A DNA stretch of 64,000 nt. Source: a virus. A program made the position numbers and the translations under genes. Positions 27,410-61,831 of this stretch are shown here, piece by piece. The stretch covers positions 1 through 64,000 of the IMG/VR virus record IMGVR_UViG_3300044691_000566; one strand, written 5' to 3'. The notes beneath the pieces are model-generated. The model ran no database searches and was not told the origin of the DNA. It saw only the letters and a program-made list of their open reading frames with translations. Every line of letters begins with the position of its first letter. Positions within the stretch are counted from its first letter, which is position 1.

Positions 27410-27631
27410 ATGGCCAAGCGCATCGAGCGTCGCACCTGTCGGGTGATCTACGCCATCCCGTCCCCGAGTCCGTTGGACGTGTTGGAGAAGGAGATCGGCT
27501 TCATCCGGAAGGAGTACCAGGAGCGGTTCGGGGAGCTGTGGGACAACGTCCCCATGATCGAGTCGCATGACGACGAGATCCACCTCTGGTACGAGGTGAA
27601 GGAGGATGCGAAGGAGGTCGCGGGGTCTTGA
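27410..27631 (+). CDS. small hypothetical protein
   Basis: Product of 73 residues, ATG 27410 after TGGAGG. Basic N-terminus, acidic helical C-terminus. It lies after a hairpin with no promoter of its own, so it may be expressed by read-through. No family recognised. Confidence 0.72.
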   Translation: MAKRIERRTCRVIYAIPSPSPLDVLEKEIGFIRKEYQERFGELWDNVPMIESHDDEIHLWYEVKEDAKEVAGS

Positions 27632-48974: not shown

Positions 48975-49004
48975 TTGACGCTCCAACAATCCTTGTAGTA
49001 GTCT
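48975..49004 (+). promoter_or_regulatory. accessory-type promoter (copy 18)
   Basis: TTGACG, spacer CTCCAACAATCCTTGTAG, TAGTCT. Confidence 0.92.
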
Positions 49005-49361: not shown

Positions 49362-49399
49362 GCACCACAGCCCGCCGGAGCTGCGATCCCGGCACCCAA

Positions 49400-49480
49400 T
49401 TCCCGGTCGTCTACTTGGTGAAGACGCTCCGTCGGGCCGCACCCGGGGGAGGGACGCTGGTTCGACTCCGGCACGGGAAG
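49400..49480 (+). ncRNA. tRNA-like element with anticodon arm replaced by a 10-bp hairpin
   Basis: Acceptor TTCCCGG/ACGGGAA (6 of 7 pairs), U8, D arm GTCT-ACTTGGTGA-AGAC and T arm GCTGG-TTCGACT-CCGGC are all standard. The anticodon position instead holds a 10-bp helix (49427-49436 with 49442-49451, one G-G mismatch) capped by CCGCA, so no 7-nt anticodon loop exists. A hairpin at 49374-49393 precedes it, and GCCAGAGA and the gene at 49513 follow. Confidence 0.6.
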
Positions 49481-49512
49481 CGCCAGAGAACACCCGAGCA
49501 CAGGGAGCCCAT

Positions 49513-49830
49513 ATGCCCATGTTCAAGATCCAGCCCGCCTCGCGGATCGACAACCTCACGGCCCACGGCGATGTGGGGCTCCAGCGTCCGTACCCCGTCT
49601 ACGCCGACAACAAGGGCAACGTGGAGTTCCAGCGCTCCTTCCGGGGCCGGGTGACCCGCGTCGTGGGCTTCCAGAAGGACCTGGCCGTCCAGCAGATCGA
49701 CCTGTCGTGGAGCGAGGCCCAGAAGAACCCGGACAAGGTCGTGGGCATGTACCTGGTCACGGCCGACAGCAAGGGTGACCTCGGCGTGCACGACACCGCC
49801 GTGGAGACCTTCGAGGAGGTGGTGCTGTGA
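49513..49830 (+). CDS. hypothetical protein
   Basis: Product of 105 residues, ATG 49513 with AGGGAG upstream, downstream of the tRNA-like element. Beta-rich. No family recognised. Confidence 0.8.
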   Translation: MPMFKIQPASRIDNLTAHGDVGLQRPYPVYADNKGNVEFQRSFRGRVTRVVGFQKDLAVQQIDLSWSEAQKNPDKVVGMYLVTADSKGDLGVHDTAVETFEEVVL

Positions 49831-50342
49831 GCATCGACAGAGTCCAGGTCGGCCGGATCTTCCGGCACAAGGCGGACGGCCGCCGCTACGTGCGAATCGA
49901 CCGCCTCTTCGATTCGCTCGATCAGCCGCCGGTCCCGGGCGTCTCGTTCGCCATCTGGGATCTCCGGGAGGGGGTGAGAGCGAAGTGGGAGGAGTTCTCC
50001 GTCCTGCCGGTTGCCATGTTCAATGAGCAGTACCGGTACGCGGCGCAGTTCTTCGAGAACCAGCAGGCCGAGATGGCCGAGGCCACCGCGATGCGCGAGA
50101 AGCTCCAGGCGGACATCGAAGCCGCCCTGGAGGCCGTCGGAGCCCAGGACCCGGCCGCCGTGGCCGGGCTGTTCGTCCGCCTGGTGCAGAACGAGTGCGC
50201 CCACCGTATCTACACCCACGACGGGTTCAAGGAGGGGTGTGCCGCAGGCTGCTGCGACTCCACCACGGACGACGCGGCCGAAGTGATCGAGGTGGAGATC
50301 ACCGACGCGGAGCGCGAGGAGCTGCTCGGGGAGAGCGCTTGA
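49827..50342 (+). CDS. hypothetical protein
   Basis: Product of 171 residues, GTG 49827 overlapping the previous stop. Beta N-terminus, helical centre, C-terminal Cys run (EGCAAGCC). Its stop overlaps promoter copy 19. Confidence 0.82.
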   Translation: MSIDRVQVGRIFRHKADGRRYVRIDRLFDSLDQPPVPGVSFAIWDLREGVRAKWEEFSVLPVAMFNEQYRYAAQFFENQQAEMAEATAMREKLQADIEAALEAVGAQDPAAVAGLFVRLVQNECAHRIYTHDGFKEGCAAGCCDSTTDDAAEVIEVEITDAEREELLGESA

Positions 50343-50368
50343 CGCTCCAACAATCCTTGTAGTAGTCT
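50339..50368 (+). promoter_or_regulatory. accessory-type promoter (copy 19)
   Basis: TTGACG, spacer CTCCAACAATCCTTGTAG, TAGTCT, then TTGACTCTGTCAG. Confidence 0.92.
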
Positions 50369-50408
50369 TGACTCTGTCAGCACGACGACGACTCCTCAGG
50401 AGGCCCAC

Positions 50409-51266
50409 ATGGCCCGTACCCGCGAAGACCTCATCGCCCAGGTGCTCAAGCTCAACGAGATGGCCAACCGCTCCAGCGAGGCCGACGATGCCGACGACGA
50501 CAACGGTGTGGCCCACGCCGAGATCGTGGACAACGCGACCCGCAAGGCGGCCAAGATCATGCGGCGCCACCAGATCACCGAGGCCGAGATCGGCCAGGCG
50601 CAGGCCGCCAAGGACGAGGAGTTCGTCCACTTCACGTTCTCGGTGCGCAACACCTACGGGCTGGGCAAGGAGCGCTCCACCGCCCTCCACCACGCCGTGA
50701 TCGTCCCCTTCGGCGGCAACTCGATGCGGACCGTCTACAAGTCGGCCAAGTCCGACACGGAGATGACCGTTTTCGCCCCGGCCAGCATCGCCGAGATGCT
50801 CAAGTCGCTGCTGTACAGCATCTCCCTCCAGATGGAGGAGGGCCTGAGGTCGGCGAGCAAGGGCGAGCGCCAGCGGATCGACGAGTCGGTCTTCTCCTGG
50901 ACCCAGGCGGAGATCAACAAGCAGGTCCTGCTCTTCCGCCGGGGCTACCTGCGGGGCTTCGCCTCCACGGTGGGCTCGCGCATCAAGGCCGCCCAGGACG
51001 AGGCCATGGAGGAGATCAAGCGGGAGCTGGAGGCCGAGGGCCGCTCGGTGTCGGCGGGCACGGAGATCGCCCTGTACGACTCCAGCAGGAAGGCGGGCGA
51101 CTTCATGAACGCCTGGTACACCGGTACCAGCGGCGGCGGGAAGCTCCGCAAGACGTCCAACCGCGCCCGGTCGTCGAGCAAGGGCATCGAGGCCGGGGCG
51201 CGGGACGGCCGCCGGGCCGACATCACCCCGCCCAGGACCGACCCGAACCGCCGCTCGTTGGTCTGA
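50409..51266 (+). CDS. DUF2786-family protein
   Basis: Product of 285 residues. The N-terminus, with a helical AxxLxE and AAKIMRRHQITEAEIG, matches the DUF2786 module found in phage and bacterial proteins. Helical middle; the Ser/Arg-rich C-terminus is basic and likely disordered. Function unknown. ATG 50409 after GGAGGCCCAC. Confidence 0.76.
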   Translation: MARTREDLIAQVLKLNEMANRSSEADDADDDNGVAHAEIVDNATRKAAKIMRRHQITEAEIGQAQAAKDEEFVHFTFSVRNTYGLGKERSTALHHAVIVPFGGNSMRTVYKSAKSDTEMTVFAPASIAEMLKSLLYSISLQMEEGLRSASKGERQRIDESVFSWTQAEINKQVLLFRRGYLRGFASTVGSRIKAAQDEAMEEIKRELEAEGRSVSAGTEIALYDSSRKAGDFMNAWYTGTSGGGKLRKTSNRARSSSKGIEAGARDGRRADITPPRTDPNRRSLV

Positions 51267-51305
51267 TGGAGGACGGCCCGCCGGGAGCCGTAATCCCGGC
51301 ACCAT

Positions 51306-51384
51306 GCCCCTGTAGCTCAATAGGCAGAGCGACCGACGCCCTCGGGCAGTCGGGACGATGCGGGTTCGAGTCCCGTCGAGGGCA
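51306..51384 (+). ncRNA. tRNA-like element lacking a normal anticodon loop
   Basis: Acceptor GCCCCTG/CGAGGGC (one mismatch), D arm GCTC-AATAGGCA-GAGC and T arm GCGGG-TTCGAGT-CCCGT are normal. The anticodon arm is CCGAC-GCC-CTCG-GGC-A-GTCGG, about 8 bp with one bulge and a 4-nt loop (11 nt if only the outer 5 bp form). A near-identical upstream hairpin (51280-51300) and a downstream GCCAGAGA match the element at 49400. Confidence 0.6.
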
Positions 51385-51413
51385 CGCCAGAGAATCAACC
51401 CGAGGAGGACCGT

Positions 51414-51767
51414 ATGGGACGGATCAAGCCGAGCAGGTCCAGGCGCATTCGCCCGCAGGACGTCGAGACGGTGGAGGATCTGTACGCGGGGCTCAACCAG
51501 GTCGCGGAACAGGCCCTGGACAAGCTCTCCGGGCGCCTGCTGGCCGCCGGGGCGTCCCCGGAGGACGTGGCGGCCCACTACGACGCCGTGAGGGCGCAGG
51601 CGGCCATGTACGTGCTCCAGATGGACCTGATGTCGTTCATCGACACGCGGCCCGACGCCGGGATCCAGCAGATCATCTTCGACGAGCTGATGAAGGACAT
51701 CAATCCGGTGGAGGCGCTGGCCATCGGTCTGCCGGACGCCGAGGACAACCCGACGGAAGAGGTCTGA
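51414..51767 (+). CDS. hypothetical protein
   Basis: Product of 117 residues, ATG 51414 after GAGGAGG, downstream of the tRNA-like element. Basic N-terminus, helical. No family recognised. Confidence 0.82.
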   Translation: MGRIKPSRSRRIRPQDVETVEDLYAGLNQVAEQALDKLSGRLLAAGASPEDVAAHYDAVRAQAAMYVLQMDLMSFIDTRPDAGIQQIIFDELMKDINPVEALAIGLPDAEDNPTEEV

Positions 51768-52539: not shown

Positions 52540-52608
52540 TCCTCCGTAGCTCAGTGGCCAGAGCGGGCCCGAAGGGGATGCGCGCGGGTTCAACTCCCGC
52601 CGGAGGAT
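52540..52608 (+). ncRNA. tRNA-like relative of tRNA-Asn with shrunken anticodon arm
   Basis: Acceptor TCCTCCG/CGGAGGA, D arm and T arm are intact and nearly identical to the tRNA-Asn at 52374, so it is a duplicate. The anticodon region is only 19 nt (23 is normal) and can form just CCC-GAA-GGG. It cannot read codons normally. Confidence 0.6.
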
Positions 52609-52880: not shown

Positions 52881-52953
52881 GCCCCCGTAGCCCAACGGCT
52901 GAGGCCCCGGCTTCAAACACCGGAAGATGTGGGTTCGAATCCCACCGGGGGTA
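52881..52953 (+). tRNA. tRNA with ambiguous anticodon (CAA, or UCA in a 9-nt loop)
   Basis: Acceptor GCCCCCG/CGGGGGT and T arm GTGGG-TTCGAAT-CCCAC are good. By standard numbering the loop is TTCAAAC (anticodon CAA, Leu) closed by a C-A mismatch. If only the 4 bp CCGG/CCGG pair, the 9-nt loop CTTCAAACA would show UCA, which reads UGA. It lacks the long variable arm of bacterial tRNA-Leu. Confidence 0.7.
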
Positions 52954-52960
52954 CGCAAGT

Positions 52961-53112
52961 TCGAGGACTGAGTGGTGAGCGTAGGCCGGTTCAACTCCGG
53001 CCGTCCCGAGGGCTCGGGTGTGGGGTTCGATTCCCCTTGACCATGGTGGCGAACAGGGATCGCGGCGTCAGTGCCGTGCCCGCGCAGAGGGGTTCGACTC
53101 CCTTCCGGTCCA
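52961..53112 (+). ncRNA. tract of degenerate tRNA-like elements
   Basis: Three more T-arm-like hairpins with TTCRAYT loops lie at 52984-53002, 53021-53037 and 53088-53104. The first has a possible acceptor (52961-52968 with 53003-53009) and almost nothing between it and the T arm. The last has a D arm GCGA-ACAGGGA-TCGC (53049-53063) but only CGGC-GTCAGT-GCCG for an anticodon arm. No gene is seen in 52213-53268 otherwise. Confidence 0.45.
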
Positions 53113-61793: not shown

Positions 61794-61831
61794 GGTGCTT
61801 CGCCAGAGATTCCGAGACCGTGGAGGTCCCC

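Follow-up and report, generated by a model that had tools for sequence, protein, structure and literature searches.

Two anticodon-less tRNA mimics, each behind a folded element and ahead of a gene, are present in the window analysed here (64,000 nt, bases 1-64000 of the 159,746-base virus record G000, a soil bacteriophage), which raises the question what such an arrangement is for. The first-pass annotation had placed the second mimic at 51280-51393 and described a unit of upstream hairpin, mimic and GCCAGAGA that seemed to be selected as a whole and, as a leader, perhaps controlled the gene behind it. The mimic proper (51306-51384) is real: its parts lie where they had been placed, it scores 45.5 bits against RF00005 (gathering score 29) and it folds as a cloverleaf. 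The start of the unit, however, moves about 7 nt upstream to 51273, because the first strand of a pseudoknot lies there.

The terminase of G000 is 77-84% identical to those of the IMG/VR contigs G001 and G004 (about 155 kb each) and 52% identical to that of G005, while the nearest named phages by this protein are Rhodococcus phage E3 and the I3-like mycobacteriophages (32-35%). From these identities G000 was classified as an uncultured phage of actinobacteriophage type. Relatives were located via the terminase, the flanking genes having given too little: searches of viral contigs and of phages found no relative of gene 51414, those of phages found none of gene 49513, and the search with gene 50409 returned distant matches only.

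The transcription unit to which the second unit belongs is opened by a putative promoter, a repeat at 50339-50413 (+; TTGACGCTCCAACAATCCTTGTAGTAGTCT...) that shares about 80-91% identity with copies at 48975, 42464, 41242, 47522, 45297, 27627 and elsewhere. The upstream gene (ORF at 50409-51266, +, stop codon TGA at 51264-51266) encodes 285 aa and matches phrog_421, a family of unknown function (E 1e-16). Six nucleotides after the TGA an H-type pseudoknot begins (51273-51300, +; ACGGC CC GCCGGG A GCCGT AAT CCCGGC), composed of stem S1 (51273-51277/51287-51291), loop L1 (51278-51279), stem S2 (51280-51285/51295-51300), A51286 and loop L3 (51292-51294); the assignment follows the sequence and the covariation of both stems in other phages. 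After 5 nt follows the cloverleaf on the + strand, defined by RF00005 and the fold, with an acceptor stem of 51306-51312/51377-51383 (one mismatch), a D arm at 51315-51330, a replacement arm at 51333-51353 (an 8-bp hairpin with one bulge and a 4-nt loop), a T arm at 51360-51376 and the discriminator A51384. The leader motif CGCCAGAGA (51385-51393, +), which by its genome-wide copy counts and contexts is generic and not specific to the unit, a ribosome site and the start codon ATG at 51414 come next, and the downstream ORF (51414-51767, +) encodes 117 aa of no family, without any match found.

The same order of parts was observed in the first unit and its gene start (49368-49513). Its pseudoknot (49368-49393, +), assigned from the sequence, has S1 at 49368-49371 (CAGC)/49380-49383 (GCTG) and S2 at 49374-49378/49389-49393; the letters of S1 are unlike those of the second unit and the pairing is kept in both. 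The first mimic (49400-49480, +; discriminator G49480) has a minimum-energy cloverleaf with 6/7 acceptor and 5/5 T-stem pairs and a 9-bp replacement arm with a 5-nt loop (49427-49451). It is followed by CGCCAGAGA at 49481-49489 (+), recognised by its sequence, copy counts and contexts, and by a gene for 105 aa (49513-49830, +) that is 52% identical to G004 64162-64452.

For both window mimics the unconstrained minimum-energy structure is a cloverleaf, and acceptor, D and T arms as well as the T-loop TTCRANT are present. A 7-nt anticodon loop on a 5-bp stem is absent from both, and no 7-nt loop with U33 was found in them. Folding-energy z-scores are weak (-1.1 to -1.7), so that folding energy alone is no proof of the mimics in such GC-rich DNA, and the predicted acceptor pair probability falls to 0.14 when 139 nt of context are folded with the pseudoknot left unconstrained. 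Rfam and ARAGORN were rejected as arbiters: ARAGORN called 51306 a tRNA-Gly from its replaced arm and missed 49400, which RF00005 did not report either. The identity Gly-GCC given to 51306 by ARAGORN is a miscall, the replaced arm having been read as an anticodon arm; annotation tools miscall such mimics as tRNA-Gly here and as tRNA-Ser or tRNA-Thr elsewhere. The mimic bodies are very variable (an extended D loop in G004, 134 nt in L123), and elbow and acceptor alone persist. The G004 mimic (L066:2868-2984) carries a hairpin-sized insertion in its D loop besides the replaced anticodon arm. In the second mimic GCCCTCG at 51338-51344 can supplant the 5' strand of the acceptor stem, giving a 47-nt minimal tRNA-like hairpin (51338-51384) that is predicted to be 2.2 kcal/mol less stable than the 51306 cloverleaf. 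This modelled fold may be either chance or a switch, and through the competing pairing of 51338-51344 with the acceptor 3' strand a cut could fall at 51338.

The hairpin said to precede both mimics is indeed common to the two units, ATCCCGGCACC having exactly two matches in the 64-kb window, one per unit, but it is not a plain hairpin. A GGC two positions ahead of it is complementary to a GCC in its loop, and covariation identifies it as one half of an H-type pseudoknot. A first scan of viral contigs for the hairpin, with the upstream part unspecified, gave 55 stretches, and an S1 of at least 3 pairs was found at exactly the expected spacing in 52 of 57 sites, S1 not being included in the search pattern. 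A second scan fixed only GGC...GGGAGCC..RATCCC and a third AGC...GGGAGCT..RATCCC, and neither prescribed the three outermost pairs of the longer stem. Among the matches listed, the outer three S2 pairs all form in 78 of 109 non-redundant sites (shuffling: 27 expected, maximum 35) and, with one site per context group, in 50 of 79 (18 expected, maximum 26), by means of 16 different helices. The fourth S1 pair, which is C-G, A-T, T-A or G-C, forms in 42 of the 50 groups among the matches listed (19 expected, maximum 28). As the S1 and S2 counts lie above every shuffle, both crossing stems are backed by compensatory change. No match was obtained among 4227 Rfam models; the pseudoknot, which covaries in both stems, is unmatched in Rfam and occurs in very different phages, is in itself a testable new RNA motif. 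Neither the pseudoknot nor the unit was found described in the open-access full-text literature, and an earlier description of the pseudoknot-mimic unit elsewhere is possible.

The position of the pseudoknot is tied to the gene before it. Among the matches listed, an ORF stop codon was located for 39 context groups, and in 31 of these S1 begins 1-11 nt past it (mode 7). The 6-nt spacing of the second unit would suit readthrough or frameshifting, but stimulation of either by the pseudoknot was provisionally set aside because no common slippery or readthrough context was seen after the stops and some pseudoknots lie 14-58 nt from the stop codon. An intrinsic terminator was ruled out for the two units, as no T-run follows the hairpin on the + strand at either of them; CACCATGCC and CACCCAATT follow instead. 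A few lone pseudoknots do carry T-runs (L120, some cyanobacteria), and a terminator-like hairpin whose loop is that of the pseudoknot is present in Rhodococcus phage Trogglehumper.

Matches to the pseudoknot pattern in bacterial genomes numbered 75, many of them chance matches without S1. In the picocyanobacterial genomes L146, L149, L163, L171, L187, L189, L193 and L216 the pseudoknot (S1 of 3-6 bp) keeps a nearly constant spacing of 13 nt from the stop codon before it; some genomes have the pseudoknot at more than one place, and no tRNA-like element was found beside it in these genomes. In the bacterial genomes L162, L170, L175 and L198 CRISPR-like repeats flank the pseudoknot sequence, as they would a spacer against phages carrying the pseudoknot, which agrees with the motif being of phage origin in these genomes. 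In the AT-rich viral contigs L220, L234, L241, L246, L254, L261, L264, L271, L277 and L288 it follows, by no more than about 40 nt, an open frame that is possibly a capsid gene and in most of them has 365-372 codons (89 in L288). Among cultured phages, matches were obtained in Zooman, Big4 and Brevundimonas phage Delta.

The outcome that would have spoken against the first-pass proposal, flanks shared by chance and missing from relatives, did not occur: the hairpin recurs before tRNA-like elements in G001 (units at 70.5 kb and 72.4 kb) and G004 (62.8 kb and 64.0 kb). In G000, G001 and G004, 6/6 pseudoknots directly precede a tRNA-like element. Among the matches listed, and with related contigs counted as independent, a T-arm was found at most 160 nt after 17 of 78 paired pseudoknots and before 1 of 78 (random windows: 1.5%). 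No T-arm stands behind 61 of these 78, again among the matches listed, so that the role of the pseudoknot is wider than its tRNA-like partner alone; this wider role is perhaps 3'-end protection after any endonucleolytic cut. Pseudoknot and acceptor stem are separated by 2-9 nt in 19 of 21 clear units.

The tRNA-like elements were grouped into the G000/G001/G004 clade, a Streptomyces-associated family, L123, L240, L289, Zooman/Big4 and ordinary-looking tRNAs. The mimics of the Streptomyces-associated family (L096, L097, L106, L112, L115, L118, L119 and others, two of which are contigs of sequenced Streptomyces genomes) all carry the unvarying core CCTTGGTCGGTTCC in their replacement arm, and several of them encode CCA after the discriminator; no blastn match to this unit was obtained in named phages. 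Zooman and Big4, phages of Microbacterium, have a pseudoknot that begins 1-2 bases past the last protein gene, with tRNA-like repeats and then a tRNA cluster behind it. The repeats between pseudoknot and cluster (L310:1501-1980 and L313:1501-2000) form an unannotated tRNA-like family, GGTGAGTAA...GGGTTTCGANTACTCTGCTCACCGC. Ordinary-looking tRNAs take the place of the mimic in G004, L275 (Thr) and L291 and L297 (Arg). As mimics and ordinary tRNAs alike stand behind the pseudoknot, the constant is a pseudoknot followed by a tRNA shape, and the anticodon is optional.

This substitution can be followed by synteny. In G000 the order is gene A, pseudoknot, mimic, CGCCAGAGA and gene B (49513), and in G004 it is gene A, pseudoknot, mimic, X, Y, pseudoknot, tRNA-Leu-like gene, CGCCAGACA and gene B, with 48% identity between the A genes and 52% between the B genes. 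In front of gene B, G004 thus carries a tRNA-Leu(CAA)-like gene instead of the mimic found in G000. The proposal that the unit is selected as a whole holds for the order of hairpin and mimic, which recurs in G001, G004 and unrelated phages, and fails for the membership of GCCAGAGA. Judged by these comparisons, the selected unit is stop codon, pseudoknot and tRNA or tRNA mimic. Comparison likewise establishes the pseudoknot fold, the cloverleaf, their adjacency, their conserved order and their place just after the stop codon.

A tRNA cluster lies 1 kb downstream. A third anticodon-less mimic within it (52540-52608, +) was identified by RF00005 (42.1 bits) and its fold, and no pseudoknot was found ahead of it. 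A large tRNA-like element at 52965-53112 (+) holds three T-arm-like hairpins within one acceptor stem, and its counterpart in G001 comes directly after a pseudoknot. Six diverged copies of this element (about 150 nt, up to three T-arm-like hairpins) were seen, the other five being L058:12200-12350 (-), L066:4492-4656, L085, L086 and L088. Two-sided changes occur in 11 of the 38 consensus pairs of these copies, several acceptor pairs included, and the element may be a distinct non-coding RNA. The tRNA-Leu(CAA)-like genes at 52881-52954 and L066:4058-4133 differ from a normal tRNA-Leu in their short variable region, have a C-A mismatch at the closing pair of the anticodon loop, and are possibly not chargeable by leucyl-tRNA synthetase.

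The sequence behind the mimic has a different status. GCCAGAGA occurs 16 times in the window, where 3.7 copies are expected, and is part of a genome-wide leader motif. For CGCCAGAGA, 17 copies were counted in the 160-kb genome and 0 for the reversed control; the motif is also present in G001-G005. A ribosome site and start codon, scored by a simple pattern, follow 12 of the 15 forward copies, and several copies lie few bases past a -10-like hexamer (6 nt at 107965, 7 nt at 61801). Across this phage group CGCCAGAGA is a general motif of 5' leaders, often just after promoters. By these copy counts the 3' flank belongs to ordinary mRNA leaders, and the 5' flank and the mimic remain as first described. 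In both window units CGCCAGAGA begins at the base right after the discriminator. Given this placement, and that of CGCCAGACA in G004, cleavage at the 3' side of the mimic would yield an mRNA 5' end like that of promoter-made messages.

The promoter-like block, TTGACRCTCCAACAATCCTTG..GTAGT with the leader, recurs at 27627, 29070, 41242, 42464, 45297, 47522, 48975, 50339 and elsewhere (about 75-91% identity among copies) and is also present in G001 and G004. If these repeats act as promoters, each window unit separates the first gene of a transcription unit from those behind it: repeat 48975, gene 49044, unit and genes 49513 and 49827 in the first case, and repeat 50339, gene 50409, unit and genes 51414 and 51769 in the second.

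By analogy with known processing of tRNA-shaped RNAs, the unit is somewhat likely to act as mRNA punctuation, in which the mimic would be cut by RNase P, the pseudoknot would shield the upstream 3' end and the downstream mRNA would be set free. Transcription through the unit, cleavage by RNase P and RNase Z and protection from exonucleases are the steps that we infer. A transcript of several genes, running from the promoter at 50339 through gene 50409 and the unit to genes 51414 and 51769, would be cut at the mimic. The RNase P of the host would recognise the tRNA-like elbow and acceptor stem and cleave at the 5' end of the mimic, which would leave the message of gene 50409 ending 5 nt past the compact pseudoknot, a putative block to 3'-to-5' exonucleases. 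In general, the predicted RNase P cut would leave 2-9 unpaired bases after the pseudoknot, too few for good loading of a 3' exonuclease. RNase Z would cut after the discriminator and create a downstream message starting with CGCCAGAGA, the leader shared with promoter-made messages, and the anticodon would have been lost because the processing surface alone is used. An encoded CCA after the discriminator usually prevents RNase Z cleavage; its presence in several Streptomyces-associated mimics makes the 3' step non-uniform and uncertain.

Control of the downstream gene by a leader, as first suggested, is less likely than separation of messages. The mimic would then sense or bind a tRNA-handling factor, or be a translational operator, and set the expression of 49513 and 51414. 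Such a role would agree with the place of the unit directly ahead of leader, ribosome site and start codon in both window cases and in relatives; we consider it unlikely, since the downstream genes are mutually unrelated and have no common theme, the pseudoknot keeps a near-fixed short distance to the upstream stop codon, and real tRNAs substitute for the mimic. Phage tRNAs have been proposed to evade anticodon nucleases through changes of the anticodon loop (PMC10264068), and a released mimic could, as a stable small RNA, titrate tRNA-binding proteins of the host or defence enzymes that cleave tRNAs, with the pseudoknot as an incidental protection of the mRNA. A mimic without the loop would be fully immune to anticodon nucleases, yet for the same lack it could neither bait them nor replace a tRNA, and the great variation of the mimic bodies around elbow and acceptor argues further that a decoy is quite unlikely. 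That the mimics are tRNA genes whose anticodons decayed in a tRNA-rich phage group and that have no function now is improbable: the tRNA-Leu-like gene of G004 at the place of the G000 mimic and the tRNA cluster nearby would fit decay, whereas the acceptor and T arms are spared while the anticodon arm is rebuilt as a strong hairpin every time, the replacement arm is invariant in the Streptomyces-associated mimics and the pseudoknot is kept. Use of the repeats primarily as homology for exchange of gene cassettes, with a secondary RNA role, would explain the two genes between two units in G004 (A-unit-X-Y-unit-B as against A-unit-B in G000) and is very improbable, as the blocks differ in sequence yet keep RNA pairing that homologous exchange does not need.

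Punctuation of mRNA by the unit would mean that phages turn one transcript into several stable messages by tRNA-shaped scissors and a protective knot, that bacterial mRNA 3' ends are made without terminators or RNase E/III, and that some phage 'tRNAs' serve a purpose unrelated to decoding. More tentatively, the units may belong to a general system of phage mRNA 3' ends, in which a pseudoknot few bases past the stop codon caps the upstream message and RNase P cuts at the adjacent tRNA or mimic, a counterpart of MALAT1/mascRNA; the lone pseudoknot would then be a new exonuclease-blocking RNA in many phages and picocyanobacteria.

Compared with known systems, the mimics resemble phage tRNA genes (RF00005) in cloverleaf, T-loop TTCRANT and acceptor stem, with 51306 and 52540 over the gathering threshold, and differ from them in having no anticodon loop, in being placed after a stop codon with a pseudoknot and in being useless for decoding. 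Plant-virus RNA 3' ends carry one or more pseudoknots and then a tRNA-like fold, which is often aminoacylated; these structures stand at genome 3' ends, whereas the phage unit is internal, between genes of a DNA phage. The STAXI motif (RF01728) of Enterobacteriales lies near DNA-handling genes and is built from pseudoknots in tandem, two or three of them, whose loops are frequently UUCG (PMC2864571); it shares with the phage pseudoknot its shortness, its occurrence in bacterial DNA and its vicinity to genes of mobile-element type (PMC2864571). Compared by description, identity with STAXI was rejected, as a single pseudoknot follows the stop at both units and has no Rfam match. In mitochondria and tRNA operons, RNase P and RNase Z can cut out intergenic tRNA-shaped elements and in this way free mRNAs; the phage marks differ in being mostly anticodon-less and in having a pseudoknot after the upstream stop.

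The end of the upstream RNA of MALAT1 is protected by a triple helix. RNase P cuts before an anticodon-less tRNA-like RNA and thereby makes this 3' end, and RNase P and RNase Z act on mascRNA, a tRNA-like RNA with a longer stem and a compact loop replacing the anticodon arm (PMC11693755). Against the model of mascRNA/menRNA (RF01684) the mimics reached 20.9 bits (gathering 42.5, E 0.39), which is chance level. The likeness to MALAT1/mascRNA is, by analogy, one of working principle, not of descent. MALAT1/mascRNA and MEN-beta/menRNA of mammals and the phage unit have in common that elbow and acceptor are kept, that a longer stem with a compact loop stands at the position of the anticodon and that a folded element lies upstream, and the 2-9 nt spacer of most units fits a mascRNA-like layout with a predicted RNase P site and a fold just upstream. 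The phage unit differs in that it lies in phage mRNA, has a pseudoknot instead of a triple helix and has a predicted cleavage; its sequence suggests a new tRNA-like unit for mRNA processing that comes together with a pseudoknot.
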